NCBI RefSeq assembly: GCF_000374165.1
Contig: NZ_KB893754.1
Span: 1 to 38,193 of the forward strand
Length of the DNA stretch: 38,193 nucleotides
Direction: 5' to 3'
DNA from: Parafrankia elaeagni
GTDB lineage: Bacteria > Actinomycetota > Actinomycetes > Frankiales > Frankiaceae
The translations under genes were made by a program, and so were the position numbers. The notes beneath the pieces were generated by a model. That model was not told the DNA's origin. It did no database searches and was given only the letters and a program-made list of their open reading frames with translations. Shown in pieces: positions 17,064 through 34,041 of this stretch. Position 1 is the stretch's first letter, and the number at the start of each line of letters is the position of its first letter.

Positions 17064-17136
17064 ACCCGACCCCCGGCCCGGTGAGCTTTGGGGTAGTGAA
17101 GCCGACGAGGACGGCCGCGCCGCGCGACATGGCTTG

Positions 17137-17583: not shown

Positions 17584-17609
17584 GGAGGGCAGTCTCCCAG
17601 GGAGGCGGG

Positions 17610-18224: not shown

Positions 18225-18309
18225 CAGCGAGCTCCTTCCGCGGCTGACATCTGATCGCTGCGGCCGGCCGGTACGGTGTGGCGAGACGAGGGCCGTGCAG
18301 ATGGGTTCG

Positions 18310-20044: not shown

Positions 20045-20725
20045 CAGGTCCTTCTCGTCGTAGGCACCTCGACGACCGGGTCAGCTGGCCGCCGCTATCG
20101 TGACGGCGAGCTGACCGCGCCGATGCTGAACGCCCTCAGCTTCCCAACCGGCGGCACGGCAGTCATTCCCCGCAATGCGAACATCCGCTTCGGGTCAGTG
20201 CAGGCCACTGACCTGCGACAACAGTGTCGACAAGCGGGAGATGTTCGGCTTGAACGCCATGATCTGTTCGGCTGATTCCACCGAAACCAGGCCCTGATCG
20301 CACGTGGCGCAGCCGGAGGCAACCCGGCACTGTCCATGATCGGATCTGCGTCCGCGAGGAACGCGGGCGGTCGGCTACCCGCCGTCCTGAACGGAGCGCC
20401 GTTCGCGGAGGAGCAGGGTCGACCGGGGCATGCTCGGTGTCTTTGCGCTTGCGCCGCGTACAGAAATTTCTCCCACGCCGGCAGGCGCAACAGTTGTACG
20501 TGAGCCTCCCGCCGTCCGCCGGAATCGTTGAATGCCGTGACCCGTTCGAGAAGTGTGGCAGCATTATCGTTCTACGATTCTTCGGTGATCCCTTGCCGGG
20601 GGGACGAGGGCGCTGCCCGATTCTTCCTGGCTCGGGTGCGGCAGCTATGGGAGCCCGGCGCGGCAGCTGATGCTGGTGTCCTAGCCCGCCCTTCGAGGGT
20701 CGCCACCGCGATCGGAGGTGCTGGG
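20045..20725. other. 681-bp divergent intergenic region
   Basis: This region separates the leftward radical SAM unit from the rightward thymidylate-kinase-like gene. Open frames here are Arg/Pro/Ser-rich and have no family pattern, so I take them as chance frames. A nested inverted repeat lies at 20179-20246. The last 150 bp before 20726 are less GC-rich (GCATTATCG, TACGATTC) and probably hold the promoter of the kinase gene. No small precursor peptide was recognised. Confidence 0.5.
20179..20246. repeat. Nested inverted repeat upstream of the radical SAM unit
   Basis: The inner arms GGTCAGTG (20193-20200) and CACTGACC (20206-20213) are perfect around a 5-base loop. The outer arms GAACATCCGCTT (20179-20190) and AAGCGGGAGATGTTC (20232-20246) pair with a short bulge. 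It lies about 135 bp upstream of the radical SAM start and could be an operator or a leader hairpin. Confidence 0.6.
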
Positions 20726-21400
20726 ATGCTCGTCAGCTTGGAAGGTCTTCCCGGGTCGGGGAAGTCGACGCAGGCCCGTCTGCTGGAGGAGCGTCTTCGC
20801 GGTGAAGGACTCAGGGTCACCTATCTCCCGGATCTCGCCACCCTCGACACCGGGGATGTCGGGATGGCCCTGTCGGAGATCTTCTCGTCGTCGGATGATC
20901 CGTTCCTGCGTCACGGGGACGTGGTGACCGAGTGTCTGTTGGCGGCGGCGGTGCGCGCGGACATCGTGGCGACGCGGATCGAGCCAGCGCTCGATCACCA
21001 CGATGTGGTGATCGAGGACCGTGGTGTGCACACCATGTTCTCTTACGGGTTGGCGTCCCTGATCCGGCAGCATGCGGCGGAGGTGGACGACGCTGTGTCC
21101 TGGCTGGATGGGTTGGGACGCCTTGCCGGGCGGCGCGCGGACGTCGTGCTGTGGCTGTCGGCGCCGGTGGGCGAGACGGTCGCGCGGGCGGAGGCTCGTG
21201 ACGGGAGGCGGTGGACAGGTGAGCAGCGCGTGTACCTGTCGTTCGTGGATCTTGCCTATCGGGAGCTGGCCGCACGCGACGCCGCCATGGTCAGGGTGCC
21301 GACGGCCGGGCAGGCGCCGGAGGCCGTGCACGCGGCCGTCTGGGAGGTGGTCGCCGCACAGCTGAAGCGGCCTGCCCGCAGGGCATCCGCAGGGGGTTGA
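20726..21400 (+). CDS. Thymidylate-kinase-like nucleotide kinase
   Basis: The protein has 224 residues from ATG 20726, with CGGAGG about eight bases upstream. Walker A is GLPGSGKST (residues 7-15). VVIEDRGVHTMFSYG carries the D-R motif of dNMP kinases. The Arg-containing lid follows in AEARDGRRWTGEQR, and a YxxLA-like helix (YLSFVDLAYRELA) closes the fold. It is close to TMK in layout but divergent, so the substrate may be another (deoxy)nucleoside monophosphate. It is followed 45 bp later by an APH-type gene on the same strand. Confidence 0.82.
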   Translation: MLVSLEGLPGSGKSTQARLLEERLRGEGLRVTYLPDLATLDTGDVGMALSEIFSSSDDPFLRHGDVVTECLLAAAVRADIVATRIEPALDHHDVVIEDRGVHTMFSYGLASLIRQHAAEVDDAVSWLDGLGRLAGRRADVVLWLSAPVGETVARAEARDGRRWTGEQRVYLSFVDLAYRELAARDAAMVRVPTAGQAPEAVHAAVWEVVAAQLKRPARRASAGG

Positions 21401-21445
21401 GCCCGTGCGTGGCGGGTGACCCTCGCCCCGTAGGCTTCGTGTGTT

Positions 21446-22414
21446 GTGAAGCCGTCACTGTCTGATGCGCCGACGATGGCACCTTCCTCGACGCCTGCGC
21501 TGCTAGCGGACGACCTGCGTAGATGTCTTGTGGTCGACGGTCCGGAACGCGTCGAGGGTTTGCACCGCCTCGGTCTTCGCCCGCTGGCGGGTGGCCGGAA
21601 CAACCACGTCTTCGCCTGGCGGGACCCGCAGGGTGACGAGGTGTGTGTGAAGGCGTACCGGTTTGATGATCGACAGCGGGCGGAGAGGGAATGGCGGGCG
21701 CTCTCCTTGCTGGCGAGGCATGGTGTGCCGAACGTGCCGCGACCGTTGTGGCGGGAGCAGCATGAGGACCGGCCTGTCGTCGCGATGACCATGCTGCCAG
21801 GTGTGAGCGTCCCTGACCTGGCTGAGCCGGCGGCGCGGGAGGCAGCCCTGGTGGGTTTGGCCGTGACGCTGTGCCCGATCCACGACGTCCCGTGGGAGAC
21901 CGGCTTCGCGAGGCTGCCCCGCGTCGACTCCGCGGCGCACTACGTGGCGAGATTGACCGAGGTGTGGCCTGGTCAGCTCGGCGCGCGGCCGGACGACCCG
22001 CTGACGCGGGACCTGCGACGGCTGCTGGGGGTGTGGCGGGACAGCGGGGACGCGGAGATGCTCGCGCGCCCCGTGGCACGGATCTTCTCGCGGGGTGACG
22101 GGAACCTGGTGAACTGGCTGTGGGATAGCGAGGTCTCGCGCTGCGTCGACTTCGAGTTCTGCGGGTGGAGCGATCTGGCGTTCGACGCCGCCGATCTCGT
22201 CGAGCACATCAGCGCCCGTGAGTTCGACGATCGGGTCTGGTCGGCCGTGGTCACGGCGCTCGGGATCGAGGGCGAGCTGATGCCGAGGTTCCGCGCGGCG
22301 CAGCGGACGTGTGCGTTGCGGTGGCTGGCGGTGCTGTGGAAGCAGCGGGAACGGCGGGCCGGGGAGTTCTCCGCCCAGCTGGACCGTGTACGGGTCCTGC
22401 TTCGCGACCAGTGA
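21446..22414 (+). CDS. APH-family phosphotransferase
   Basis: The protein has 322 residues from GTG 21446; ATG 21476 is an alternative start. It is a kinase-like fold with an N-lobe lysine in VCVKAYRFDD (about K69), the hinge VVAMTMLPG, the catalytic loop SRGDGNLVNW (D218, N223) and the metal site CVDFEFCGW (D235). The usual HGD is replaced by RGD, as in some APH relatives. It is probably co-transcribed with the upstream dNMP-kinase-like gene. The substrate is unknown. It converges on the end of the long que operon, leaving only 13 bp. Confidence 0.8.
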   Translation: MKPSLSDAPTMAPSSTPALLADDLRRCLVVDGPERVEGLHRLGLRPLAGGRNNHVFAWRDPQGDEVCVKAYRFDDRQRAEREWRALSLLARHGVPNVPRPLWREQHEDRPVVAMTMLPGVSVPDLAEPAAREAALVGLAVTLCPIHDVPWETGFARLPRVDSAAHYVARLTEVWPGQLGARPDDPLTRDLRRLLGVWRDSGDAEMLARPVARIFSRGDGNLVNWLWDSEVSRCVDFEFCGWSDLAFDAADLVEHISAREFDDRVWSAVVTALGIEGELMPRFRAAQRTCALRWLAVLWKQRERRAGEFSAQLDRVRVLLRDQ

Positions 22415-22427
22415 GGTGGTAGCGCGC

Positions 22428-22967
22428 TCAGCCGGGCGCGGCGCGGGAGGTGACGCCGAGTCGGTCGAGGCAGCGCGCGACGACGGTCGCCAGCTCGGTG
22501 TCCGTGGATAGGACGATCTTCGGTTCGGGGATGGGGACCGCGTTCGCGTGAATCCGCTGGTAGAGGGCGACGGTGCGATCGGCCGCGGGATGGGTGCCCT
22601 CGGCCTGGTCGTGGGTGAGACGTGCGTGCGCGACGGCCGGCGGGCAGACGCACTCAATGACGTGCAGAGGGCGTCCGAGGCGGTCGGCGAGGTGGGCGAC
22701 CCGGCTGATCTGACCGGCGCGGTGGCAGGTTGGGCCGTCGAGCACGACGGCGGGGGCGATTCCCTCGCCGATCAGGTGGGCGGCGGCCTGGTGGGCGACG
22801 TCGATGCACAGGTCGTCCTGGGCGGGGCTGTAGGTGAGATAGGGGTCGGCGAACAGGGCGTGGCGGATGTGGTCCTTGCCGAGGACGGCGGCGGGCAGGT
22901 GCCGGCCGAGTTCGGCGGCGAGGGTGCTCTTCCCGGTTCCGGGGAGACCAGCCAGCTGCACGATCAT
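22428..22967 (-). CDS. Small AAA_33-type P-loop kinase
   Basis: The protein has 179 residues from ATG 22967, with AAGGAAGG upstream. Walker A is GLPGTGKST (residues 7-15), then LGKDHIRHALF and VVLDGPTCHRAGQ, the pattern of small-molecule kinases related to chloramphenicol, gluconate and adenylylsulfate kinases. A lid segment with Arg (RLTHDQAEGTHPAADR) follows. It is the last gene of the long minus-strand operon, 25 bp after the nucleotidyltransferase gene. It may phosphorylate the pathway's product or an intermediate. Confidence 0.8.
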   Translation of the reverse strand: MIVQLAGLPGTGKSTLAAELGRHLPAAVLGKDHIRHALFADPYLTYSPAQDDLCIDVAHQAAAHLIGEGIAPAVVLDGPTCHRAGQISRVAHLADRLGRPLHVIECVCPPAVAHARLTHDQAEGTHPAADRTVALYQRIHANAVPIPEPKIVLSTDTELATVVARCLDRLGVTSRAAPG

Positions 22968-22992
22968 CAAGATCCTTCCTTGTGGTGTGGCG

Positions 22993-23940
22993 TCAGATGC
23001 CTGCCGTGGGTGCCCATCCCTCGTCGGCGCGGCACAGGTCCCACAGGCCGTCGAGACCGCGGACACCTTCGGCCGCCGGGATCTGAGTCGCGGGACCGAT
23101 CTGTGCGCTCGCTGGGGCCAGGCGCAGCGCGTCGGCACGCGTGCGCAAGAAGACTGGCCTGCCCGAATCGTCCTTGCGCCGCGCGGTCAGGAGCACGACG
23201 GTGAGGTGATCGAGGGGGGCGAGGACGGGCAGGTCGATGTTCGGGTGGCCGGGCAGGGGTTGGGACCGTCGGCGATCGAGCATGCTCGGCACCAGGTCAG
23301 GGAGAACCGGCACGGGCCGGGGCAGGTCGGTGATGATGTCGACGGCCGTGCAGGGAGCGACGAGGTCGTCGTGTAGGCGGGTGTAGGTCGCTGACATCGG
23401 GTCGTCGAGAGCGACGCGGTGGGTGGTCGAGTCGTAGCGTCCGGGCTGGTAGCCGAGCAGACGCAGGGCACGGCGGAAGGCGTCGGCCTGGTCCGGGGCG
23501 ACCAGGACGTCGAGGTCGCTGAACTCGCGGGCGCCACGTCCTCCATACAGCTGGGACTCCAGGGCGATGCCTTTGACAGCCGCGAAGGCGACGTGGTGGC
23601 GGGCCGCCGCATCGGTGAGGGCGGCGGCCTGCGCACGGTGGACGGCGGTCTTGTGTCGGCTGGTGCGCAGAACGGAGGTTAGAAAGCGGCGGAACGCCCG
23701 GGGGACCTCGTCTACCAGGCCGGTGGTGGTGAGGGTGTCGGCGAGCAGGCACAGCACCTTGTGCTCGATGGCCGTGGCGAGCAGCGTGCCCCAGTGCAGT
23801 GCCGGCTCGGTGAGCAGCGGCCGGATCGCGGCGTGCTGCTGCTCGACGGGTGCGGGCAGGCAGGCCGCCTCCAGGACGAGGTGTTCCACCCGTGGCGTCT
23901 CCGGTGGACATGCGGGGATGCGCGGGGTCGCTGGTCTCAT
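22993..23940 (-). CDS. Nucleotidyltransferase-family protein (NTP_transf_5 type)
   Basis: The protein has 315 residues from ATG 23940, overlapping the HPr-kinase-like stop as ATGA. A helical N-terminus leads to AVKGIALESQLYGG and the nucleotidyltransferase core REFSDLDVLV with D142 and D144 as the metal-binding pair. A third acidic strand lies further on (TAVDIITDLP). This family is often encoded beside HPr-kinase-like proteins in lasso-peptide and surface-polysaccharide clusters, and the same pairing occurs here. It should transfer a nucleotidyl group to a small acceptor or protein; the acceptor is unknown. Confidence 0.8.
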   Translation of the reverse strand: MRPATPRIPACPPETPRVEHLVLEAACLPAPVEQQHAAIRPLLTEPALHWGTLLATAIEHKVLCLLADTLTTTGLVDEVPRAFRRFLTSVLRTSRHKTAVHRAQAAALTDAAARHHVAFAAVKGIALESQLYGGRGAREFSDLDVLVAPDQADAFRRALRLLGYQPGRYDSTTHRVALDDPMSATYTRLHDDLVAPCTAVDIITDLPRPVPVLPDLVPSMLDRRRSQPLPGHPNIDLPVLAPLDHLTVVLLTARRKDDSGRPVFLRTRADALRLAPASAQIGPATQIPAAEGVRGLDGLWDLCRADEGWAPTAGI

Positions 23941-25052
23941 CGGGTGGCTGCTTCGGTGTCGTGGAGGATCGCGGTGACGGCGTCGGCGAGCGTGGTGGGG
24001 TCCGGGCGGGCCACCAGCTCGTAGCAGGGCACGGTCCGGGCGAGGGCGGCGATGACGGCGCGCCGGTTGCTCTCCGTCGTGTGGGCCGGGGGCGCCGGGG
24101 CGAGCCAGTGGTTGATGTGGGAGCTGGCGTCCGAGGTGGGGCGGTGCATGAACAGCTGGTTGCTTGTCAGCGTGGCGTGGACGGTCCCCGCAGGGATCCG
24201 CTCGTGACGGGCGTTTCCTGCGGTCGGGGACAGCTGCGGCCAGATCATCACGTGGGGGCGGCAGGAGGCGGTGAGCGTGCCCGCGTGCAATAGGCGTGGG
24301 ATGTCGGGGGGCTCGATGCTGAGTTTCGTGTGCAGGTCGGCCGGGTCCCCGCGTAGACCAGTGGGGACGAGGCCGGTGAGGTTGGGGTAGGCGAGCAGAG
24401 TGCCGACGCCGACGCGGATGTGGGCGGGCCAGGCGTAGCCGAGCAGCCCGCCGTTTCTGTCGGGGGTGAGCAGGAGCCGGTCGCTGGTGACGAACTCTCC
24501 GCCGAGCCGGCGCAGGACGGCGACGAGGGTGGTGGTCTTGCCGGCGCCGGGATGGCCGGCGATCAGGATGCCGTGGTCGCGGTGGACGAGCGCGGCGGTG
24601 TGGGTGTAGACGGCGCCGGCGGCGAGGAGCTGGGCGGTTATGAGTTGGCGGACGAGGCGGGCGGCGTAGTAGGTCGCCGCGTCGTCGGTGGCGCAGTGGA
24701 CGGTGGTCGTGCGTCGGGTGGGGTCGTGGACGATGAGGGTGCGGTGCTGGTCGATCCAGAAGATCTCGCGTTCGTCCTCGGTGATGTGGTGGGCGGTGAG
24801 CTCGCTGGGGCCGATCTCGCGGAGGTCGCCGACGTCGGGCGGGGCGTCGAGGAGGCTGTGGTGGGGGTCGGCGACGGTGATGGTGACGTGCCACGCGGCG
24901 TGCGGGTCGGTGGTGGTCCGGTAGGCGTAGAGGGTGTCCTGGGCGGCGCGCGCCGCGGCGGTCACGGTCGTGGTGAGGGTGACCGAGGCGTCGGCGAGGC
25001 GGAAGCAGGTGACGTGGCGGGTCCGCGGGCCGGCGGCGGGATTGTGGGTCAC
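23937..25052 (-). CDS. HPr kinase/phosphorylase-like protein
   Basis: The protein has 371 residues from GTG 25052, overlapping the cupin stop as GTGA. The N-terminal 140 residues are unlike bacterial HprK and may form a separate recognition domain. The P-loop is GHPGAGKTTT at about 166-175, followed by GGEFVTSDRLLL, where HprK has its acidic Walker B-like motif. No HPr or PTS gene is nearby. Homologues in biosynthetic clusters phosphorylate peptide termini or small molecules, and here the neighbours are sugar and deazaguanine enzymes. The substrate is therefore open. Confidence 0.78.
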   Translation of the reverse strand: MTHNPAAGPRTRHVTCFRLADASVTLTTTVTAAARAAQDTLYAYRTTTDPHAAWHVTITVADPHHSLLDAPPDVGDLREIGPSELTAHHITEDEREIFWIDQHRTLIVHDPTRRTTTVHCATDDAATYYAARLVRQLITAQLLAAGAVYTHTAALVHRDHGILIAGHPGAGKTTTLVAVLRRLGGEFVTSDRLLLTPDRNGGLLGYAWPAHIRVGVGTLLAYPNLTGLVPTGLRGDPADLHTKLSIEPPDIPRLLHAGTLTASCRPHVMIWPQLSPTAGNARHERIPAGTVHATLTSNQLFMHRPTSDASSHINHWLAPAPPAHTTESNRRAVIAALARTVPCYELVARPDPTTLADAVTAILHDTEAATR

Positions 25053-25882
25053 GCTGGTCCTCGGAGGATCTCCGTGGCGAGGGCGGCCCGTACCAGCGCG
25101 GCCAGGGAGGTCATGGGCGCGTCACGGTGCAGGTCCGGGAGGCGGGTGGCCAGCGGCCAGGACGCCAACCAGGCGGGAACGGGCAGCGCGGTCGGCGGGC
25201 CGTACTCACGCTGTGAGTCGGCGGTGACGCTGAGGGGGTGTTCGGTGTCGCCGTCGCGTACAACGACGAGGCCGGGAGCGGCGGCCCGCTGGTATTTGGC
25301 GTCGTCCAGGCGGGGGTATGCGTCGTCGGGGTCGAGGTGGATGTCGGTGTAGATGTTGAACACGGCTGCCGGGCCGTCGAGGACGTAGGTCAGGTGCCAG
25401 GCCCCGAACGGCACGACGGCGAGGTCCCCGGCCCGGGTGGTCACCTGGTGGGCGTAGCGGGAGCCGTCGGGCCGGTGCCCGGCTACCAGCATCAGGGTGG
25501 TGCCGCTCAGGGTCTGGAAGATTTCCAGCTGGGTGGGCGGGTTCCAGTGGCCGATGGACCGGTGGGGTTGCCCGTCGGGCAGTGTGCCGGGCTGGTAGAC
25601 GACGAGGTCGGCCCGCCAGCCGTGCCGGGTGGATGCGACGTCCCGGTACGCCTCGTACAGCAGCGGGTCCTCGCCGGCCTTCAGCGCCGTCTCGATCTGA
25701 CGGCGGTCGGCGAAGGCGGTGTGGGGGCGGCTGGCATCGGCGTCGCCGTACAGGAGGTGGGACAGGAATCGGCGGCTGGGCGGACCGGGGGCGGCGCCGA
25801 GGAGAGACGCGATACCGGCGGGGAGATCGTCCTCGGTCGTGGTGGCGGTGGTTGCGGGGCGTGGTACGGCAAAGGAGTCCAT
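25049..25882 (-). CDS. Cupin protein, phosphoglucose-isomerase type
   Basis: The protein has 277 residues from ATG 25882, with AGGAGA seven bases upstream, so it can initiate independently in the operon. A double-stranded beta-helix is marked by GHWNPPTQLEIFQTLSG (H112, E120) and VVPFGAWHLTYVLDG (H163), which align with the metal site of archaeal-type glucose-6-phosphate isomerase cupins. The second His of the usual HxH appears as Asn. It would interconvert aldose and ketose phosphates, or bind a sugar phosphate, and it sits with three other sugar-phosphate genes. It lies 43 bp after the HAD gene. Confidence 0.72.
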   Translation of the reverse strand: MDSFAVPRPATTATTTEDDLPAGIASLLGAAPGPPSRRFLSHLLYGDADASRPHTAFADRRQIETALKAGEDPLLYEAYRDVASTRHGWRADLVVYQPGTLPDGQPHRSIGHWNPPTQLEIFQTLSGTTLMLVAGHRPDGSRYAHQVTTRAGDLAVVPFGAWHLTYVLDGPAAVFNIYTDIHLDPDDAYPRLDDAKYQRAAAPGLVVVRDGDTEHPLSVTADSQREYGPPTALPVPAWLASWPLATRLPDLHRDAPMTSLAALVRAALATEILRGPA

Positions 25883-25925
25883 GCGTTGTCTCCTGTCCGA
25901 ACGTCGGTCAGGGCTAGTCCGCGGC

Positions 25926-26699
25926 TCACCGGCCGGCGTCGGCGGCCGACGCCTCAGGTACCGCGGTGGGCGTGGTCTGGGGGGCGAGTCGCTGGACCAG
26001 TACGGGAATGTCGACGAGCAGTGCGGCGTCGGGCGCCTCGGGTCGCGACGGCTTGTGCCCGGGGTTGAACCAGACCGCGCGGCAGCCCGCGTCGAGGGCG
26101 CCGCGGACGTCGGTGCGCCAGTCGTTGCCGACATGCACGACCTGGTCGATAGAGGTGCCGGTCTGCTCGGCGATGGCGTGGAACATCGCGGCCTGGGGTT
26201 TGGCCACGCCGAGTTCGCTGGAGAAGAACAGCCGGTCGAAATGGTCGGTGAGCCGGTGGCGGTCGAGGATCTGCCGGGTGACGGCTCCTGGGGTCGCCAG
26301 GGTGTTGGAGGCGAGGACAAGGCGGTAGCCGGCGGCGGACAGTGCGGCGAGGCAGGCGTGCGCGCCGGGGATCAGCTGGGGGCAGGCCCGCAGCACGGCG
26401 TGGGTGTGCGCGACCGTGAGTACCTGGACGAGGGCGTCGTCGGCGTCGATGCCGAGCCGGCGGACGATCGTGCGGACCTGCTCGGGGACCGGGATCTGCC
26501 GGCCGTGCTGTCGCTGCTCGTCGAGCAGCTCGGCGCGGACCGCTCGGACCGTGGTGTCCAGGTGCTCGGCGGGAAGGGTGTGGCCGAACGCGGTCAGGGC
26601 GAGGTGGAACTCGCGGACCCGCCAGGCGGCTTCGGCGTCCCGGTCGCCGTAGCTGATCAGCGTTCCCCACAGGTCCACGCTGACGACCGTGACGCTCAC
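25926..26699 (-). CDS. HAD-superfamily hydrolase
   Basis: The protein has 257 residues from GTG 26699, overlapping the epimerase-like stop as GTGA. Motif I is VDLWGTLISYG: nucleophile D9 is present, but the usual second Asp is Trp (DxWGT), as in some haloacid-dehalogenase-like members. Motif II is LVLASNTLA, motif III lies in GVAKPQAAMF and motif IV is HVGNDWRTDVRGA. The cap is helical. A phosphatase role on sugar or nucleotide phosphates is plausible from context, though loss of the acid/base Asp may change the chemistry. Confidence 0.83.
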   Translation of the reverse strand: MSVTVVSVDLWGTLISYGDRDAEAAWRVREFHLALTAFGHTLPAEHLDTTVRAVRAELLDEQRQHGRQIPVPEQVRTIVRRLGIDADDALVQVLTVAHTHAVLRACPQLIPGAHACLAALSAAGYRLVLASNTLATPGAVTRQILDRHRLTDHFDRLFFSSELGVAKPQAAMFHAIAEQTGTSIDQVVHVGNDWRTDVRGALDAGCRAVWFNPGHKPSRPEAPDAALLVDIPVLVQRLAPQTTPTAVPEASAADAGR

Positions 26700-27436
26700 C
26701 GCGGGCGCCTGGTTGTGGCCCGCGGCGGGACGTGCTGGTGCAGCCACCGGGTCGTGGCGGTCAGGTCGTCGCTGCCGAACAGCAGCGAGCCGGCGACCAC
26801 GCCGTCGGCACCGGCGTCGGCGAGGGGGCCGACGGTCGGCTCGCGGATGCCGCCGTCGGCGAGGATCTTCACGGCATGGTCGCGGCCGGTCTCGTGCAGG
26901 AGACCGCGCAGGGTTCGGAGGCGGTCGAGCGCGGCCGGGGCAAGTCCGGTGCCTCGGGTGCCGATCGGGGTGCCGACGAGGACGACGACGTCGACCGCGT
27001 CGAGGAAGGGGCGGACGGCCGTGACGGGGGTGTCGAGGGTGAGTGCCAGGCCGGCGGCTTTCCCGTGCTGGCGGATCGTGTCGAGGGCCGGGTAGACGTC
27101 GTCGCCGGTTTCGACGTGGACGGTGATGAGGTCGGCGCCGGCCTGCGCGAACAGGGCGGCGAGCAGGGCGGGCCGGCGGACCATGAGGTGGGCGTGGAAG
27201 GGGACGGTCGTCAGCGGGCGCAGCGCGGCGAGCAGGTCCGGGAAGAACAGCAGGTCGGGCACGAACTGGCTGTCGCCGACGTCGAAGTGGAACAGGTCTG
27301 CCACGGGCGAGGCGCGCTCGATCTCGGCGCGCAGGCACGCCAGGTCCGCCGACCAGACGGAGACGTCGACCAGCAGCCGCCCGTCCGGCAGGCCAGCCAG
27401 CGGCTGACGCGACGAGGCCGTGCGGGTGCCGCTCAT
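26696..27436 (-). CDS. Ribulose-phosphate 3-epimerase-like protein
   Basis: The protein has 246 residues from ATG 27436, overlapping the TIM-barrel gene as ATGA. The RPE signatures are present but divergent: FHFDVGDSQFVPD replaces the usual HxDVMDGxFVPN, FHAHLMVRRP carries the second His, and KILADGGI gives the second catalytic Asp. The metal ligands H50, D52, H83 and D194 are conserved. It is probably an epimerase of a pentulose or hexulose 5/6-phosphate other than housekeeping Rpe. It works beside a TIM-barrel isomerase and a cupin isomerase, suggesting synthesis of a special sugar phosphate. Confidence 0.82.
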   Translation of the reverse strand: MSGTRTASSRQPLAGLPDGRLLVDVSVWSADLACLRAEIERASPVADLFHFDVGDSQFVPDLLFFPDLLAALRPLTTVPFHAHLMVRRPALLAALFAQAGADLITVHVETGDDVYPALDTIRQHGKAAGLALTLDTPVTAVRPFLDAVDVVVLVGTPIGTRGTGLAPAALDRLRTLRGLLHETGRDHAVKILADGGIREPTVGPLADAGADGVVAGSLLFGSDDLTATTRWLHQHVPPRATTRRPR

Positions 27437-28326
27437 CGGGCGAGCTGTTCTTTGCAGTGGGCGACCGAGCTGGCGATCGTCCGGCGGACCTGGTCGTCGT
27501 CGTCCTCGAACCGCGGGTAGACCTCCAGGAGCACCGGCACGTCGTCCAGTCCGGCGTCCCGCAGCGCCGCGCCGACCTCGGCGACGTCCACACGTCCCTG
27601 CGGGTGGGGCCAGCCCCAGTGCGGGTCGCCCAGACCGTCGGTGTTGTCGAGGTGCACCAGCCGGATTGCCGGGCCCAGCGGGCTGATCCAGTCCGCCGGT
27701 GTGCTGTCCGGGCCGTACAGCGGCTGGTAGAGGGTGTGACCGATGTCGAGCGTCAGGCCGACCGGCACCTCGGTGCGTCCGGCCAGGTCGCGTATCAGCT
27801 GTTCGGCCTGGCTGACCGTGGCCGGGATCTCGCGGGCGATCGGCGTCGGTTCGACGAGGAACTCGGCGAGACCGACGGCCGCGGCGTGGTCGGCGACGAA
27901 CACCAGCGAGTCGAGTAGATCGGCGTAGCGCCGTGCCCGGCTGTCGGGGTCGGCGGCGTCCTGGATGCTCAAGGTGCCCAGCGGTCCCCCGACAGCATGG
28001 GCGCCGAGCAGCGCGGTCACGTCGCAGGCCCGCCGCCACCAGGTCAGCGCGACCGCCCGCGCCTGCGGGTCGGGATCGAGCAGCCCGGCGGGTAGGTAGT
28101 GTGCCAGGCCGACGTAGGCGCTGTGGATGGTGAGATCCCACGCGGTGGCGGCGTCGGCGATGCGGCGGGTGACCTTGTCGCGTTCCCGCTCCGGCCACCA
28201 CGGGTCGAGCAGGTCGAAGGTGACCTGCACCGTGTCCAAGCCCAGGTCGGCGCGGACGAACTCGGCCCACCGCTGCGGTTCCAGGTCGCGTTTGACGGCG
28301 AAGCACAGGTTGATACCGAGGTTCAT
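27433..28326 (-). CDS. Sugar phosphate isomerase/epimerase (xylose-isomerase-like TIM barrel)
   Basis: The protein has 297 residues from ATG 28326, overlapping the deoxyribosyltransferase-like stop as ATGA. The fold is AP_endonuclease_2/hydroxypyruvate-isomerase type: MNLGINLCFAV at the first strand, LTIHSAYVGL, FLVEPTPI (metal Glu), LTLDIGHTLYQ (Asp/His), RLVHLDNTDG and VLLEVYPR (C-terminal Glu). These place a divalent metal at the barrel mouth. Family members isomerise ketoses, inososes or hydroxypyruvate. It is a cytoplasmic enzyme, and its operon position suggests it prepares or remodels the sugar unit for the pathway. Confidence 0.83.
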   Translation of the reverse strand: MNLGINLCFAVKRDLEPQRWAEFVRADLGLDTVQVTFDLLDPWWPERERDKVTRRIADAATAWDLTIHSAYVGLAHYLPAGLLDPDPQARAVALTWWRRACDVTALLGAHAVGGPLGTLSIQDAADPDSRARRYADLLDSLVFVADHAAAVGLAEFLVEPTPIAREIPATVSQAEQLIRDLAGRTEVPVGLTLDIGHTLYQPLYGPDSTPADWISPLGPAIRLVHLDNTDGLGDPHWGWPHPQGRVDVAEVGAALRDAGLDDVPVLLEVYPRFEDDDDQVRRTIASSVAHCKEQLAR

Positions 28327-28841
28327 GCGGGCTGGCCTCCTGCGGTCGGTGTGCGGGGCTCGGAGTCCGCGGGACCCGAGCCGTCCGCGGTGGTATTCGG
28401 CCGCCGGCCATGCAGGTGCGCGGCCAGCGTGGCGGTGAGCTCGTCGAGAGAGCGACTGATGCCACCACCCAGCGCGTAGTCGATCATCAGGTTGTTCGAG
28501 TCGGTACCGCCGAAGCGGCGGGAGTCGGTCTGCAACCCGAAACAGGTCTTGCCGGCGGCATACGCGAGGCCGAGCTCGAAGCAGGCGCCCTCGTCGGGCA
28601 CCCGGCCGTCCAGGATGAGCACGAACAGCTCGCAGCCGCCGACGGCCGTGCAGTCGGCGGTGAACAGCCGGGCCCGGACGGTGTGCTCGTCGGCGCCGGC
28701 GCGGATCAGCGGCGCGGCTTCGCCGGCGTCCCGCTGCGGCAGGTAGGTGTCGAGCCCGAGGTCCCGCAGCACACGGTCGACGGTCAGGTTGAACTCTTTC
28801 TCCGCCTGGCTGAACAGCGGCGCGGCGATGTAGATCCTCAC
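28323..28841 (-). CDS. Nucleoside 2-deoxyribosyltransferase-like enzyme
   Basis: The protein has 172 residues from GTG 28841, overlapping queC by GTGA. MRIYIAAPLFSQAEKEFN is the typical N-terminus of the PF05014 family, and DEGACFELGLAYAAGK contains the nucleophilic Glu (E89) that attacks the glycosidic carbon. It is a Rossmann-like fold that oligomerises. The family swaps nucleobases on deoxyribonucleosides or hydrolyses nucleotide N-glycosidic bonds. Coupling to QueC makes exchange of a nucleobase for preQ0, or release of a base, an attractive hypothesis. The C-terminal 40 residues are a disordered Pro/Gly/Thr tail. Confidence 0.85.
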   Translation of the reverse strand: MRIYIAAPLFSQAEKEFNLTVDRVLRDLGLDTYLPQRDAGEAAPLIRAGADEHTVRARLFTADCTAVGGCELFVLILDGRVPDEGACFELGLAYAAGKTCFGLQTDSRRFGGTDSNNLMIDYALGGGISRSLDELTATLAAHLHGRRPNTTADGSGPADSEPRTPTAGGQPA

Positions 28842-29572
28842 CGCCGACCGTCCTTCGCCGCGGCCGGGTGGGCGGGCGGCGGGGGGACGAAGCCGACGGC
28901 GTCGAGAGCGGCGAAGAACTCCTCGGCCCGATGGTCCGGGTAGGTGCCGTCCCGCATCGCGGAGACGTAGTAGTCGGCGACCCGCGCCCAGGTCCACGGG
29001 TCGGTCTCGAACGGCGCGTCGACGCCGTTGTTGACCAGGGAGATCCAGCGGCGCAGGCAGCTGGAGCACTGCCCACAGTGCACCGCCAGGCTGTCGGTGC
29101 GCGAGCAGGAGAACGTCAGCAGCAGGTCGCCGGCCGGCAGGCCCTGGCCCAGGTACCAGGCGACGATCTCCGTCTTGGTCATCTGCCAGAACGGGCTGTC
29201 AAGCCAGACCGGTCGCCCCGACAGATCTGTGATCATCTGGCTGATCCGGCGAAACGCCTGGGGGCTCTTATCCGCGGTCGCGTCACCCTTGACCCCGACG
29301 CACCAGATCCGCTCGGCCCGGTTCGCGGCCAGCATCGCGAGGTAGACGTTGCGCAGCGGGATGATCGCGTCGTCGGCTTCCCACCGCGACAGGTCGAGTT
29401 CCCGACTGACACTCACCTCGACGCCGCACCGGTCGACCAGCGCCGTGATCGCGGCCCGTTCCTGGTCGCGGTAGCGGTGGCCGAGGTCGAAGTACAGCGC
29501 CGGAGGTTTGTCGAGATAGTGCCAGGCCGGGAACGAGTCGAGCCCGGCGGAGAACAGCAGCACATCAGACAC
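28838..29572 (-). CDS. queC: QueC-like 7-cyano-7-deazaguanine synthase
   Basis: The protein has 244 residues from GTG 29572, with GGGAGGAG upstream. The PP-loop ATPase signature is SAGLDS (residues 8-13, usual SGGLDS), followed by LGHRYRDQERAA and VGVKGDATADKSPQAF. The zinc site has four cysteines, C156, C166, C169 and C172 (CSRTD... HCGQCSSC). QueC converts 7-carboxy-7-deazaguanine to preQ0 with ammonia and ATP. This protein is compact and divergent, closer in style to phage and accessory QueC-like proteins than to the housekeeping enzyme, so an amide or conjugation variant is possible. Confidence 0.85.
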   Translation of the reverse strand: MSDVLLFSAGLDSFPAWHYLDKPPALYFDLGHRYRDQERAAITALVDRCGVEVSVSRELDLSRWEADDAIIPLRNVYLAMLAANRAERIWCVGVKGDATADKSPQAFRRISQMITDLSGRPVWLDSPFWQMTKTEIVAWYLGQGLPAGDLLLTFSCSRTDSLAVHCGQCSSCLRRWISLVNNGVDAPFETDPWTWARVADYYVSAMRDGTYPDHRAEEFFAALDAVGFVPPPPAHPAAAKDGRR

Positions 29573-30338
29573 CGGGATCTCCTCCCACGGTGGAAACACC
29601 GAGCAAGGCCAGCAGGTCCTGTTCGATCTCGTCGGCGACGTCGTCGGCCTCACGCAGGTCGACGACGACGGGGACCACCACGTCGGGGAAGGCGGCGACC
29701 ACATGCCGGTAGGCGGCGTCGAACCGCGGCAGGAACAGCAGCCGCTCCACCGAGCCCGGCACACCGCCGCCGCGCCCGCGCAAGATCGCCCGTTCCCGCG
29801 CCAGCGGCCACGGGACGTCCAGGAAGTACGCCCGGTCCGGGACACAGAACCACGGGGCGACACACCCCCGGAGCTGATCCAGCAGCGCGCTGCCGGTGAC
29901 ATCAGGGCGCGTTTCGCTGAGGATCGCCAGGCAGTAGGCGAGCTTGGAGTAGACGCCGTGGTCGACCACCACGACGTCGTGCGCCTCCAGCGCCGGCCGG
30001 TAGAAGTGGTTGTGGTGCCACGCCTCCCGACACAGCCGCGCGAACACGTCGACCGTGGCGTGATGAGGGTGACGGAACCCGCCGGTGCCCGTCCTGGCCC
30101 GCAGCGGCTCACGTTCCAACCAGCGCGACAGCCGACCCACCACGCCCGGCAGCGGCCCGTAGTGCACCACCTCGACGTCGAACCCCTGCCCTGCCAGGCG
30201 GCGGCCGAGCTGCCCGGCCATGGTCGTCTTTCCCGCCCCCCACAGCCCCTCGACCGTGACGAGCACACCGCTGCGCGGGCGCAGGCGACCAGCGGTGGAC
30301 CCGGCCGTGATGAGGGAGCTGGGATGGTCAGCGGCCAC
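29565..30338 (-). CDS. Thymidylate-kinase-like P-loop kinase
   Basis: The protein has 257 residues from GTG 30338, preceded by GGGGGA and overlapping the queE stop by 11 bp; GTG 30266 is an alternative start. Walker A is GLWGAGKTT (about residues 31-39). VVVDHGVYSKLAYCLAI takes the place of the dNMP-kinase D-R motif. A lid with several Arg (LARERAILRGRGGG) follows. The enzyme lies between QueE and QueC in the operon, which is unusual for preQ0 synthesis. It may phosphorylate the deazapurine nucleoside or nucleotide made by the pathway. Confidence 0.8.
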   Translation of the reverse strand: MAADHPSSLITAGSTAGRLRPRSGVLVTVEGLWGAGKTTMAGQLGRRLAGQGFDVEVVHYGPLPGVVGRLSRWLEREPLRARTGTGGFRHPHHATVDVFARLCREAWHHNHFYRPALEAHDVVVVDHGVYSKLAYCLAILSETRPDVTGSALLDQLRGCVAPWFCVPDRAYFLDVPWPLARERAILRGRGGGVPGSVERLLFLPRFDAAYRHVVAAFPDVVVPVVVDLREADDVADEIEQDLLALLGVSTVGGDPGV

Positions 30339-31044
30339 GAGCGTTCCCCCACAGCAGCACGTGCAGACGCGGCGAGAGGTTCCAACCCCGTTCCAGGGCG
30401 ATCTCGGCCAGGCGCCGCATACCGGCCAGCACGCTCGGCTCGTCGCTGCCTTCCGGCATCACCCACACCGGAGACAGGCCGAAACGACCCTCCAGCTCCG
30501 CCATCTCGTCGATCTCCCCGTCCCTGGCGACCACGAACTTGAACACGGCCTTGCCGCAGCCTGCGAACGCCGTCAACGCCGCCGGGACGATCCGTCGGCC
30601 TGCGGCCACCCGCGAGCCCGACAGCTTCGGCGAGACGGTGAACCGGTCGATGGCCTCGACCATCTCTGTCGTCGGCGCCACGGTGCCGTTCGTCTCGATC
30701 TCCACTTGCCGTCCCGCCTGTGCGAGCGCGGCGACCAGCGGAAACAGGGCGGACTGTTGCAGCAGCGGCTCCCCGCCGGTCACGACCACTCGGGTCACCG
30801 GCGAGTCCAGCGCCCAGCCGAGCAGCGTGCGCTGGCTCAGCCGCTGGCTGTGTGCGTCCACGTCGAACCGGTTCCTGTCCCACGTATACGGCTCGTCGCA
30901 CCACGCACAGGACAGGTTGCACGCCGAGAGCCGCAGGAACAGCGCCTGCTGGCCGGCCGTCGGCCCCTCACCCTGAAACGTCGGACCGAACCGCTCCACG
31001 ACCACAAGTCCACGCGGCGGCGTACCGGGGGAGGCCGGGATCAC
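30328..31044 (-). CDS. queE: QueE, 7-carboxy-7-deazaguanine synthase (radical SAM)
   Basis: The protein has 238 residues from GTG 31044, overlapping the queD stop as GTGA. The motif FGPTFQGEGPTAG is diagnostic of QueE. The 4Fe-4S motif is CNLSCAWC (C42, C46, C49), followed by DEPYTWD and VVTGGEPLLQQ. KLSGSRVAAGRRI lies where family members bind substrate. QueE contracts 6-carboxy-5,6,7,8-tetrahydropterin to 7-carboxy-7-deazaguanine using SAM and Mg2+. It is the second gene of the operon, immediately after the enzyme that makes its substrate. Confidence 0.93.
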   Translation of the reverse strand: MIPASPGTPPRGLVVVERFGPTFQGEGPTAGQQALFLRLSACNLSCAWCDEPYTWDRNRFDVDAHSQRLSQRTLLGWALDSPVTRVVVTGGEPLLQQSALFPLVAALAQAGRQVEIETNGTVAPTTEMVEAIDRFTVSPKLSGSRVAAGRRIVPAALTAFAGCGKAVFKFVVARDGEIDEMAELEGRFGLSPVWVMPEGSDEPSVLAGMRRLAEIALERGWNLSPRLHVLLWGNARGR

Positions 31045-31463
31045 CGGGACTCCCCGAGCAGGTACTCGGCCCAGCTCCTCGGCGTCTCCGACACCCGCAC
31101 CGCCACGAGCCGGCCATGCACCCCGGGTTCCACCTCGGCCCGGAACCACCGCGCCAGATGCTGCGCGAGCGCCTCGCTGGTCGGCTCGACGTCCAGCACC
31201 TCGTTCAGGTCACGGTGGTCGAACGACTCGGCGAGATAACGACCGGCCACGGCGAGATCACCAAAGTCGGTGACGAACCCCGGCCCGGCCAGCTCCGAGG
31301 CTTCCAGCACGAACTCGACCGTGTACGTGTGGCCATGAACGCGGGAGCACTTGTGGTCGGTAGGCAGGCTCGGTAGGTGGTGCGCGGCATCGAAGGTGAA
31401 CCGTTTCCCAATCCGAAAGGTCGCCGCACCGGATATCCGACTTTCGATCACTGTGCGCTCCAT
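31041..31463 (-). CDS. queD: QueD, 6-carboxytetrahydropterin synthase
   Basis: The protein has 140 residues from ATG 31463. It has a PTPS/QueD fold with FTFDAAHHLP (zinc His 28/29), HKCSRVHGHTY (catalytic C39; zinc H43, H45), VTDFGDL, FDHRDLNEVL (catalytic H83) and PTSEALA (substrate Glu E97). The Cys spacing CxxxHGH fits QueD rather than mammalian PTPS. It converts 7,8-dihydroneopterin triphosphate to 6-carboxytetrahydropterin. It is the first gene of the 12-gene minus-strand operon, so the promoter must lie in the 617-bp region to its right. Confidence 0.93.
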   Translation of the reverse strand: MERTVIESRISGAATFRIGKRFTFDAAHHLPSLPTDHKCSRVHGHTYTVEFVLEASELAGPGFVTDFGDLAVAGRYLAESFDHRDLNEVLDVEPTSEALAQHLARWFRAEVEPGVHGRLVAVRVSETPRSWAEYLLGESR

Positions 31464-32080: not shown

Positions 32081-32395
32081 TCAGAGCGGTTCCGTGCTGT
32101 GGGCTTTGGCGATGGCGTTGATGCGCCGCGCGAGATCGAAGTCGGCCGCAGTGAGCCGGTGCCCGGCGTCGTGGGTGGTGATCCCGAATCGGATGCTGTC
32201 CCAGCGCAGGTCGATGTCCGCGTGATGGCTGATGAGCCGCTCGATGTCGGCGACGTGCACGATCAGGGCGACTCTGCGGTGGTAGCGGACGCGGAAAATT
32301 TTTGGTGATCTCCTGGCCGACGCGGGCCCAGCCGGGTGCTCGCACAGCCGGACCTCGATCTCGTCATCGGCCAGGGTCGCCGGAACATCCGGCAC
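32081..32395 (-). CDS. Pterin-4a-carbinolamine dehydratase, with compensated double frameshift
   Basis: The protein has 104 residues from GTG 32395, with AAGGAG eight bases upstream. LADDEIEVRLCEHP at the start and LISHHADIDLRWDSIRF, HRLTAADFDLARRI at the end are those of a PCD (catalytic HH pair intact). Between them the frame reads AGPASARRSPKIF, whereas the next frame reads GWARVGQEITKNF, the expected family sequence. One base is missing near 32333 and one extra T sits near 32298, so about 14 residues are scrambled and the frame is then restored. The enzyme may be crippled or the gene decaying. Confidence 0.72.
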   Translation of the reverse strand: MPDVPATLADDEIEVRLCEHPAGPASARRSPKIFRVRYHRRVALIVHVADIERLISHHADIDLRWDSIRFGITTHDAGHRLTAADFDLARRINAIAKAHSTEPL

Positions 32396-32407
32396 GTCGG
32401 GTCTCCT

Positions 32408-32547
32408 TCAGAGCCCGAAGATCTCGTCGAGGTCGCGGCCGACGGCCATCCCTTCCAGAGCCGTGCAGCTTCCCGCAGGCGGGGACCATCGCACGCTCGA
32501 CCTGTCGTATGTCAGGCCAGCAACTCCGCTCCGGCATGGCCTGTTCT
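32408..32547 (-). pseudogene. Possible C-terminal remnant of an unidentified gene
   Basis: In the gap between the two PCD genes one minus frame ends CTALEGMAVGRDLDEIFGL and stops at 32408, immediately before the ribosome site of the downstream PCD gene. That position and the protein-like composition suggest the tail of a former operon gene whose 5' part is lost. I cannot name the family. Confidence 0.3.
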
Positions 32548-32847
32548 CTACCCTGCTCCATGTACTGGCGCGATTTCCTGGATGCGCCTGGCGAGCTCGA
32601 TGTCGTGCTCGGCGACGTAGCCGCCGATGTCGCTGGAGCTGATGGACACGTGCACGGTCTTGTAGCCGAGCGTCGCGTCGGAGTGATGGCCGAACTCGTT
32701 CTGAATGGCGGCGAGGTGCATGACAAACGCCGCGCCCTGGACGTGGGGTATCGAGTAGAGCCGTTCGATGCGTCGGCCGTCGGTCGTCCATCCGTCCAGG
32801 GTCTTGAGGTGTTCCTCGATCTGTTCGGGTGACAGCGCCTCAGCCAT
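32548..32847 (-). CDS. Pterin-4a-carbinolamine dehydratase
   Basis: The protein has 99 residues from ATG 32847, overlapping the end of the truncated TPR regulator by 8 bp. This is a full-length PCD/DCoH: LSPEQIEEHLKTLDGW at the N-terminus, YSIPHVQGAAFVMHLAAIQNE, the catalytic EFGHHSD (H54, H55), then TVHVSISSSDIGGYVAEHD. It dehydrates 4a-hydroxytetrahydropterins and recycles tetrahydrobiopterin in aromatic hydroxylase reactions. It lies near QueD, another pterin enzyme, but on the far side of a 1-kb gap, so a common pathway is only suggested. Its promoter was probably that of the disrupted regulator gene. Confidence 0.88.
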   Translation of the reverse strand: MAEALSPEQIEEHLKTLDGWTTDGRRIERLYSIPHVQGAAFVMHLAAIQNEFGHHSDATLGYKTVHVSISSSDIGGYVAEHDIELARRIQEIAPVHGAG

Positions 32848-33521
32848 GATCCCTCTCTGGTTCGTCGATGGTGACGGGCGCGAGCGCGTCCGCCAGTTCC
32901 TGGCCGATGGAGTGAGCACGCCACGGGGCCATCGCCACGGCGACCGTATCCAGTTCCCGCCGGGCACGTGCGGAGCCGGTCTCCACCGCGAGCGCGCTTG
33001 CCTGGCGCGCGAGTTCCACTGCCCGTTCCGGTTCTCCCTGCCGCGCGGCGGCGACCGCGTGGCGTGCTGACCAGACCCCGACGTCGCGGCGGGCTGACGG
33101 GGGTGCGGCGGGGATGATCTGCTGCCAGAGACGGTCGGCGTTGTCGGCGAGGCCGAGCCGTCCGTAGCAGGTGGCGCGTTGCACTTCGACGTAGCTGTCG
33201 GTGCGGCGGCAGGCCGTTCCCCACTCCTCGACGTCGACCTGGTCCACGAGCCGGCCAGCCTGATCGAGCAGGAGATCGACCTGGCGGCGGTCACCGCGCA
33301 GCGAGGCGCCGTGTGCCTGCTGCTGCAAGGCGAACACCTGAACCTCGGGTGCAAGGTGCGGCGCGTCGACCAGCGCGGCCTGGCACAGGTCGATCACAGC
33401 TGCTGTGTTGCCCAGGTCGGTGAAGGCCATCGCCCGGTCGACCAGCGCGCAGGCGACGGCGTCACGTTCTCCACAGCGGTGCGCCAGTTCCAGGGCGGCG
33501 CCGTGGCAGCGCATCCCTGTC
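32840..33521 (-). pseudogene. TPR-type transcriptional regulator, C-terminal half only
   Basis: About 225 codons of TPR-like helices remain (LELAHRCGERDAVACALVDR, AVIDLCQAALVDAP, YGRLGLADNADRLWQQI, ERAVELARQASALAVETGS), ending at TGA 32840. These match the C-terminal region of XRE/TPR regulators of actinomycetes. The upstream HTH half is absent because the second IS begins at about 33522. The ATG at 33514 is an internal methionine. It is not the copy related to the 11.6-kb regulator but a different member of the broad family. The downstream PCD gene overlaps it and was probably under its control. Confidence 0.75.
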
Positions 33522-33576: not shown

Positions 33577-34041
33577 ATGGGATCTTCAAGACCAGTGACG
33601 TTGACCATGGCAGACATGGCCTCCTCGACGCAGGAGGATGGCGAGGTGAGCCCCTCCCGAGGCGGGCCGAGGTCGGACCGGCCGAAGCGCCGGACCTTCA
33701 CCGCGGCCTACAAGAAGAGAATCCTGAACGAGTACGACGGCCTGACCGAGTCGGGCGAACGAGGCGCCCTGCTCCGCCGGGAAGGCCTGTACCACTCCCA
33801 CATCCAGAAATGGCGTGAGACACAGGAGCAAGGTGCTCACGACGGCCTCGAAGGAAAGCCCGCCGGCCGGCCCGCGGCCACCGAGACGGACACCGACAAC
33901 GAGCGGCTACGGCGAGAGAACGAACGGCTCGCCGCCGAGCTGGCACGAACGAAAGCAGCGCTGGAAGTCGTGGGAAAAGCACACGCGCTCTTGGAACTGA
34001 TCTCCGGGAGCGCGGATTCCGACAGGAAACCCAGCAGATAG
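33577..34041 (+). CDS. IS3-family transposase OrfA
   Basis: The protein has 154 residues from ATG 33577, or about 144 from ATG 33607. The N-terminal helix-turn-helix (RRTFTAAYKKRILNEYDG, then REGLYHSHIQKWR) is of transposase_8 type. Residues about 105-130 form a leucine/arginine coiled coil (NERLRRENERLAAELARTKA) for dimerisation. A G GGA AAA heptamer at 33972-33978 is phased for -1 slippage, and the orfB frame is open from there. Without slippage the protein ends at TAG 34041. The long Gly/Arg segment before the coiled coil is typical of actinobacterial copies. Confidence 0.88.
   Translation: MGSSRPVTLTMADMASSTQEDGEVSPSRGGPRSDRPKRRTFTAAYKKRILNEYDGLTESGERGALLRREGLYHSHIQKWRETQEQGAHDGLEGKPAGRPAATETDTDNERLRRENERLAAELARTKAALEVVGKAHALLELISGSADSDRKPSR
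33972..33978 (+). promoter_or_regulatory. Probable -1 frameshift site of the second IS
   Basis: The heptamer GGGAAAA is read G GGA AAA in the orfA frame, matching the X XXY YYZ rule. The -1 frame is open from 33978 through to the orfB stop at 35072 with no internal stop in the overlap that I could find. Confidence 0.6.

Follow-up and report, generated by a model that had tools for sequence, protein, structure and literature searches.

The contig NZ_KB893754.1 of Parafrankia elaeagni (GCF_000374165.1) was analysed as a single window of 38,193 nt, with positions given on the forward strand. We found that it carries a conserved gene cluster in which the synthesis of a 7-deazaguanine base is joined to sugar isomerases, an N-glycosyl-transfer enzyme, kinases and a nucleotidyltransferase, as a preliminary description of this DNA had proposed. 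A pathway to a deazaguanine-sugar metabolite is well supported as a general reading of these genes. More specifically, the cluster is probably a mobile biosynthetic unit for a phosphorylated 7-deazaguanine nucleoside, or a close relative of one, with a sugar other than ribose. The proposal is built on gene content and order, on the mutual exclusion of two candidate base-joining enzymes, on family assignments and on the state of catalytic motifs, all of which are read from the sequences. No description of this gene set was found in the literature searched (openly licensed PubMed Central (PMC) papers).

Twelve genes at 22428-31463 all lie on the minus strand in a check of open reading frames (ORFs), and nine of the eleven junctions between them are overlaps (of 4 bp in seven cases, of 8 bp and 11 bp in the others), the other two being gaps of 43 and 25 bp. 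In the direction of transcription they encode QueD, QueE, a thymidylate-kinase-like protein (TMK1), a QueC-family protein, a nucleoside 2-deoxyribosyltransferase (NDT)-family protein, a TIM barrel, a ribulose-phosphate 3-epimerase (RPE)-family protein, a HAD-family protein, a cupin, an HprK-related protein, an NTP_transf_5 nucleotidyltransferase and an AAA_33 kinase; families were assigned by Pfam and NCBIfam. This run had been described correctly before, but the unit is larger. A plus-strand pair at 20723-22414, which encodes a second thymidylate-kinase-like kinase (TMK2) and an APH-family phosphotransferase and lies tail to tail with the twelve genes, also belongs to the conserved core. By comparison of loci, the conserved unit in the window is 14 genes rather than 12.

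The same set recurs in other genera. The core order of the window set is found in Frankia, Amycolatopsis, Saccharothrix, Lentzea, Streptosporangium and two metagenome assemblies, and is partly altered on Streptomyces plasmids and in Micromonospora. Among loci of what we call the A form (see below), the order from queD to APH is identical in L004, L012, L013, L015, L016 and L018; in L005 the gene-order script left the NDT gene unassigned, but tblastn puts it at the expected site. TMK2 and APH are inverted in the window and in Frankia sp. AiPa1 (L008). Some loci are partial: L011 stops after the cupin gene, L009 starts at the RPE gene, and the recognisable part of L014 (Pseudonocardia dioxanivorans) begins inside the TIM barrel. 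In L006, L007 and L010 (Streptomyces plasmids and Micromonospora okii) tmk1 follows the TIM barrel gene, and several genes lie between queE and queC. The APH gene is near those of the AAA_33 kinase and TMK2 in 13 of 14 loci, the fourteenth (L011) ending at the cupin. The preliminary description had allowed that the synteny might prove confined to this strain; instead, the gene set is conserved widely across actinomycetes.

We compared the core proteins with 72,556 plasmid records by tblastn. QueC (E 1e-8) matched seven of them, and the HprK-like protein (E 1e-6) and TMK1 (E 1e-15) matched exactly the same seven and no others; the cupin matched these seven cluster records and Streptomyces mirabilis. 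Five of the seven were opened (L004-L007 and L027; NZ_CP107815 and NZ_CP107890 were left out). Since three core proteins return the same plasmid records, the core genes appear to travel together, the cupin being found elsewhere as well. These shared records and the conserved gene order place the association of the genes beyond chance. A cupin profile run against genome contigs gave 11 loci, 10 of them with the cluster (in part at L009, L011 and L014); the eleventh, in Streptomyces griseoviridis (L017), has of the window genes only the cupin and a pterin-4a-carbinolamine dehydratase (PCD). The S. mirabilis locus (L025) is related to L017, and an APH/TCAD9-like protein and an enolase are encoded beside its cupin. 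Of 394 genomes sampled across the class, 3 had a match to the cupin profile, and two of these probably contain the cluster; a QueC search of the window's family matched 2 of 36 genomes, its own and one other at 94 percent identity. Such a rare and patchy spread is as expected of a mobile element, and the unit appears to move among soil actinomycetes that are only distantly related, in many cases carried by large plasmids.

The clusters fall into two forms. B-form genes from L006, together with the A-form NDT and TIM barrel genes, were compared with 16 sequences (the window and 15 loci). The NDT was found in ten (the window, L004, L005, L011, L012, L013, L015, L016, L018 and L019), a phosphoribosyltransferase (PRT) in four (L006, L007, L027 and L010, from Streptomyces plasmids and Micromonospora okii), and both together in none. 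The two sequences with neither (L009 and L014) are without that part of the cluster, and L009 is too short to be assigned to either form. The NDT and PRT families are not related to each other, and both form or cleave one type of bond. Their mutual exclusion, rather than any shared position, suggests two solutions to a base-joining step, and the xanthine/guanine type of the PRT fits a guanine-like base. The TIM barrel also changes with the form, being hydroxypyruvate-isomerase-like in B and a relative of 3qxb/4k3z in A. All four B-form loci add FolE, a radical SAM protein and a DegT aminotransferase; the three Streptomyces B-form records further encode an adenylation-thiolation didomain, two HADs, a methyltransferase and a 685-residue protein that has no Pfam match.

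The enzymes of early deazaguanine synthesis look intact. QueD (6-carboxytetrahydropterin synthase; 31041-31463, minus strand; PTPS 3.5e-30) is the sole PTPS match of the genome and reads ...DHKCSRVHGH... and ...DHRDLN..., which supply the catalytic Cys, the HGH zinc motif and the DH dyad of the family. CxxxHGH is present in at least one domain of 12/12 orthologues, six of which are tandem with a Cys-less first domain, and the dyad is invariant in 13/13 alignment rows. The tandem proteins, with two PTPS domains and the catalytic Cys missing from the first, are those of L005, L011, L012, L013, L016 and L018. QueE (7-carboxy-7-deazaguanine (CDG) synthase, a radical SAM protein; 30328-31044, minus strand; Radical_SAM 1e-7) keeps the three Cys of CxxxCxxC in 13/13 rows, and its best NCBIfam models are QueE models (TIGR03365, 8.1e-30), with scores under the equivalog cut-offs. 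In fact, all three Que proteins miss these cut-offs, QueD narrowly (85.1 versus 89.25 bits). One GTP cyclohydrolase I is encoded elsewhere in the genome.

The QueC-family protein is different. This ATP-dependent enzyme (28838-29572, minus strand, with the start codon picked by its ribosome-binding site; PF06508 2.8e-10) is divergent. According to the available sections of PMC13329287 (2026), canonical QueC is marked by SGGxDS, YxQxHxxE, VPxRN, YPDC and C(x)8CxxCxxC with a Tyr after the first Cys, and mutation shows that it needs Tyr35, Arg99, Tyr131 and Tyr189. The signature, as given there, is failed by 12/12 cluster copies. In all of them Tyr35 is replaced by Leu, Ile or Ser and Gln37 by His; the alignment has a gap at Tyr131, and in place of YPDC there is xDK, its Lys being invariant. 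The Tyr189 site after the first zinc Cys holds Ser, Met or Ala, or once Phe (L007). Glu42, Arg99, Asn100, Asp133, Lys165 and the zinc cysteines are kept. The L011 copy was left out of the alignment, and its printed stretch agrees. The three Tyr are kept by 6/6 canonical controls (E. coli, mycobacteriophage Rinkes, Turneriella, Halobacterium, Paracoccus and Phocaeicola), which share 20-28 percent identity with the window protein; the Halobacterium control has Thr at His39. In a single-sequence PDB search the only significant match of the window QueC was Cap9 (9nto, 2.6e-5), and no solved canonical QueC appeared at E <=1. The survey of the QueC family in PMC13329287, in the sections available, covered its 10 largest clusters (98.5 percent of sequences), and the small lineage described here may lie outside them.

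We conclude from these replacements that the cluster QueC is a divergent paralogue with a changed function or mechanism, which likely no longer makes preQ0. Because QueC fails the canonical signature as set out in the available text, preQ0 as the end point of QueD, QueE and QueC, which had been assumed earlier, is doubtful, and the base may instead be CDG or a CDG conjugate. A tentative extension, to which we give some chance of being right, is a new QueC chemistry in which the CDG carboxylate would be joined to an acceptor that is carried on a sugar or nucleotide and is produced by the isomerases and kinases of the cluster. The product would then be a small-molecule counterpart of protein carboxydeazaguanylation, not a preQ0 nucleoside. 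A phage origin of this QueC was considered and set aside: just 4 of 50,697 phage records match, at 27-32 percent identity. Viral contigs scanned with the cupin profile gave no relative. QueC-like proteins of gut phages (L035 and L036) have the DK motif and an NNG tail as in the cluster QueC.

Rather unlikely, in our judgement, is a nucleoside antibiotic cluster like those of toyocamycin and tubercidin, in which a drifted QueC would still make preQ0. Such a cluster would agree with the intact motifs of QueD and QueE and with the residues that QueC retains (the zinc cysteines, Arg99, Asn100, Glu42, Asp133 and Lys165). In the accounts available of the toyocamycin, tubercidin and huimycin clusters (PMC6112128, PMC7439116 and PMC12648386), QueD and QueE homologues likewise supply the 7-deazaguanine base, and FolE and a purine-type PRT are shared with the B form, which makes that form resemble the tubercidin cluster. 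However, the three Tyr that all six canonical controls keep are replaced or absent in 12/12 cluster copies, and the window core has no TubD/ToyE-type reductase. FolE, PRT and GMP-reductase-like families did not rise above cut-off in any of the 14 window core proteins. Relative to those clusters as described, QueC is divergent, the A form has NDT instead of PRT, and there are many extra sugar and kinase genes: the sugar isomerases, the HprK-like protein, NTP_transf_5, TMK1, TMK2, AAA_33 and APH.

It is also unlikely that the QueC-type enzyme is a deazaguanine ligase, coupling the CDG carboxylate to an amine or hydroxyl group, and that the cluster is a conjugation or signalling system instead of a route to a nucleoside. 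Cap9 (type IV CBASS) and QatC belong to the QueC family and, in the portion of PMC13329287 available, join CDG to a protein N-terminus. Cap9 is the best and only significant PDB match of the window protein, the PADLOC QueC model matches it at 1.4e-15 and QatC weakly (5.7e-5), the Tyr residues described as essential for preQ0 are replaced in 12/12 copies, and a nucleotidyltransferase lies within the operon. On the other side, Cap9, as described there, retains YxDC and Y/FxQ motifs that are lost in the cluster QueC, so that residues common to Cap9 and canonical QueC are replaced here. The sugar isomerases and the NDT or PRT are also left unexplained. A defence system of the type IV CBASS or Qat kind was tried and rejected: no CD-NTase, QatA, QatB or QatD model matched at E 0.001 in a PADLOC scan confined to 10/14 core proteins (all but TIM, RPE, HAD and APH).

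Very unlikely is an operon for tRNA queuosine or for 7-deazaguanine DNA modification, although QueD, QueE and QueC occur together. The draft genome (98 percent complete) has no match to the tRNA-guanine transglycosylase family (TGT, PF01702), for which 14/14 control genomes are positive. This makes the queuosine role, raised in the preliminary description as a possible refutation, improbable, and the divergence of QueC also speaks against such an operon. That unrelated genes lie together by chance in a single strain, for which the rarity of QueC (2/36 same-family genomes) and of the cupin (3/394 class genomes) alone could be cited, is refuted by the recurrence of these genes, with their order mostly kept, on plasmids and in distant genera.

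With a phosphorylated deazaguanine nucleoside as the preferred product, the genes after queC would supply the sugar and its attachment. The NDT-family protein (28323-28841, minus strand; PF05014 Nuc_deoxyrib_tr 7.8e-17) is proposed to join base and sugar. In the PDB it matches 7o62 (8.1e-20) and the NDT 7m5h (1e-12), with the N-terminal Tyr and the LDG...E region aligned; it thereby appears to be a genuine family member with the N-terminal Tyr and the nucleophile Glu, in the catalytic roles that we take these residues to have. The A-form TIM barrel (AP_endonuc_2; 27433-28326, minus strand; PF01261 4e-19), a proposed sugar or sugar-phosphate isomerase/epimerase, matches 3qxb (6.7e-58) and 4k3z (5.4e-18). 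The RPE-family protein (26696-27436, minus strand; PF00834 Ribul_P_3_epim 2.7e-43) is nearest to RPE in the PDB (1.5e-36), followed by D-allulose-6-P 3-epimerase (7.8e-29). Its scores stay below both specific models (TIGR01163, 157.7 versus 212.6 bits; AlsE, 104.9 versus 271). HxDxxD and DGGI are present in 14/14 loci and FHxHxM in 11/14. A second RPE of the genome lies on C25, so the cluster copy is probably dedicated to this pathway.

The HAD-family protein (25926-26699, minus strand; PF00702 2.3e-17) has the nucleophile motif DLWGTL, which is found in the window and in 14/14 loci. The next protein (25049-25882, minus strand) had been labelled simply as a cupin. Its Pfam match is under cut-off (E 0.02), and a profile search puts Pyrococcus phosphoglucose isomerase mutants first (4luk, E 5e-5). 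An AlphaFold model was built from 10 sequences (mean pLDDT 75.7, pTM 0.80, with low-confidence stretches). Among the best 50 of 1,813 Foldseek matches of this model, archaeal phosphoglucose isomerases take ranks 1-11 (E 2.5e-10 to 3.4e-9), followed by an engineered protein (1.1e-8) and oxalate oxidase (2.8e-6). The TM-scores are modest at 0.42-0.48 by query, the match of best E having 0.47 by query and 0.66 by target. By profile and predicted fold, then, the protein resembles a cupin-type phosphoglucose isomerase, which corrects the earlier label.

The remaining core genes point to phosphorylation and group transfer. TMK1 (29565-30338, minus strand; PF02223 Thymidylate_kin 6.5e-7) is a P-loop kinase, and the AAA_33 protein (22428-22967, minus strand; PF13671 9.5e-18) is a small-molecule kinase. 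TMK2 (20723-21400, plus strand; PF02223 4.8e-12) and APH (21446-22414, plus strand; PF01636 2.1e-20), the inverted members of the conserved core, form one open frame in L005, L012, L013 and L014, that is, in 4 of the 13 loci with both genes, and in L005 they are annotated as a single protein. This shared reading frame suggests that TMK2 and APH act in consecutive steps. The HprK-related, P-loop kinase-like protein (23937-25052, minus strand) bears a weak label: TIGR04355 (HprK_rel_B) matches it at 5.5e-13 with 48.8 bits, well under the cut-off of 200, the PDB HprK at E 0.32, and PF07475 with 12.6 versus 33.3 bits, which leaves it outside the HPr kinases proper. Its support comes mainly from the P-loop region, with Walker A residues invariant in 9/9 sequences. 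The NTP_transf_5 protein (22993-23940, minus strand; PF14907 6.6e-25), in the family to which the nucleotidyltransferase of lasso peptide clusters presumably belongs, has D142, D144 and D201 invariant in 9/9. An inositol-monophosphatase (IMPase)-family gene was matched in 13 of the 15 other sequences, the best match of L013 lying outside the cluster and L011 ending before the site.

From these genes we infer a route, with its reactions, their order and the product. The housekeeping GTP cyclohydrolase I, QueD and QueE would provide CDG, whose carboxylate the divergent QueC would activate with ATP to give a nitrile, an amide or a conjugate. A hexose or pentose phosphate would be reshaped by three enzymes: the cupin that resembles phosphoglucose isomerase, the 3-epimerase of the RPE family and the TIM-barrel isomerase. 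The N-glycosidic bond would be made by the NDT in the window, and by the guanine-type PRT on the Streptomyces plasmids and in Micromonospora okii. In finishing, APH, TMK2, TMK1 and the AAA_33 kinase would phosphorylate, the HAD protein, helped elsewhere by the IMPase-family enzyme, would dephosphorylate, and the HprK-like/NTP_transf_5 pair would phosphorylate and transfer a nucleotidyl or glycosyl group.

Several observations weigh against parts of this scheme. The NDT gene lies after queC and the PRT gene before it, and FolE, the TIM barrel type, the position of tmk1, the radical SAM protein and the aminotransferase all change along with the PRT; since both the position and other genes differ, NDT and PRT do not necessarily replace each other at a single step. 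The usual reaction of NDTs is base exchange on 2-deoxyribose, and the joining step may use an ordinary sugar, with the isomerases serving another moiety. The core shows no AgmC-like pyrophosphokinase, and the PRT form would accordingly depend on phosphoribosyl pyrophosphate (PRPP) or another donor. In the HAD motif DLWGTL a Trp replaces the usual second Asp, and phosphatase activity should not be assumed. The cupin, aligned to 4luk, has Asn in place of the second metal-site His in 10/10 sequences (we take His-x-His...Glu...His to be the cupin metal ligands). These two proteins may thus not carry out the reactions for which they are named. The IMPase-family gene has no match in the window or in L019, and there is no exporter among the window proteins scanned. 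Finally, the correlations of pairwise identity among core genes, computed without L007 and L014, are positive and uneven (0.16-0.79).

The preliminary description had left the choice between a metabolite, a cofactor and a nucleotide signal. We favour a secondary metabolite because L027 has transporter genes, many of the loci have related regulators, and the cluster is found on plasmids and is patchily distributed. In L027 the cluster is followed by ABC transporter, HIT-domain, phosphotransferase and MFS genes and then by site-specific integrases. One family of XRE/TPR-type regulators is present at 9 of 14 contigs examined (L019 and L020 being one contig).

Two further known systems share parts of the gene set. 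In angustmycin biosynthesis, as far as the available text of PMC8599513 describes it, an AlsE-like epimerase, a transferase and a HAD phosphatase make a nucleoside with an unusual sugar. An RPE/AlsE-type 3-epimerase and a HAD protein are common to both, and a PRT is shared by the B form only. In contrast to that cluster as described, the base here is 7-deazaguanine rather than adenine, and the core has no ribose-phosphate pyrophosphokinase, phosphoribohydrolase or AgmF-type dehydratase; neither a PRPP-synthetase-like AgmC nor a SAH-hydrolase-like AgmF figures in the Pfam results for the 14 core proteins. In lasso peptide clusters, according to the part of PMC8498205 available, an HPr-kinase-like enzyme places a phosphate on the C-terminal serine; in pseudomycoidin a hexose is attached to this phosphate by a nucleotidyltransferase. 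This kinase and nucleotidyltransferase, present in both systems, might by analogy be a precedent for the adjacent HprK-like/NTP_transf_5 pair, but the core proteins include no asparagine-synthase-like, PqqD-like or protease family as in the lasso clusters described. A search for a conserved small-peptide ORF upstream of queD, of the kind expected for a ribosomally synthesized and post-translationally modified peptide (RiPP), gave nothing convincing, as the candidate groups mix frames of larger genes and related strains.

None of the toyocamycin, tubercidin, huimycin and angustmycin clusters, as described in the text available, has this combination. We regard the cluster as a variant of a 7-deazapurine biosynthetic cluster outside those families as they are described. 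The 7-deazapurine pathways of tubercidin and huimycin use PRPP or attach a ready-made sugar in the available accounts (PMC6112128, PMC7439116 and PMC12648386). Here a base pathway and a set for reshaping phosphosugars are locked in one mobile unit. It occurs on plasmids as well as in several groups of actinomycetes, and its two forms have unrelated putative base-joining enzymes, NDT or PRT. What else the QueC fold makes from CDG can now be tested in a lineage without the residues reported, in the sections available, as essential for preQ0. The plasmids of Amycolatopsis sp. AA4, Streptomyces longwoodensis and S. liliifuscus, as well as Frankia sp. AiPa1, offer hosts in which to search for the product.

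The surroundings of the core are more variable. Just upstream of queD, on the same strand, the window has two PCD-family genes (32081-32847), which find no match in the Frankia contig and are possibly linked to pterin chemistry or there by chance. Next to them, the product of 32840-33514 has a weak TPR match (0.0015, under cut-off) and is similar to a portion of the XRE-type regulator found in the Streptomyces clusters (31.7 percent, 8.5e-6); beside it lies an rve-type transposase gene (33577-35072). The regulator appears, from this alignment, to be incomplete in the window. Between an NsdA-family regulator and TMK2 (13156-20044), a 2'-5' RNA ligase-like protein, a HAD protein, two dNMP-kinase-like proteins, an APH protein, an unknown protein of 233 aa and a radical SAM protein are encoded, a group by which the cluster may be extended in this strain. 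The radical SAM protein and its neighbour were rejected as core members, having no plasmid match at the cut-offs used and none in the Frankia contig. Farther away, a T2SSE ATPase gene lies in 4636-8727; a neighbouring gene (5556-6461) has no Pfam match, and by eye the neighbours look like a Tad-type pilus locus. On an Agrobacterium leguminum plasmid (L034, 2658-8481), a QueC-like gene is near a PfkB-family gene, three TIR-domain genes and a DUF4231 gene. This region is possibly a defence island and might be connected with cluster 4 as it figures in the available part of PMC13329287.

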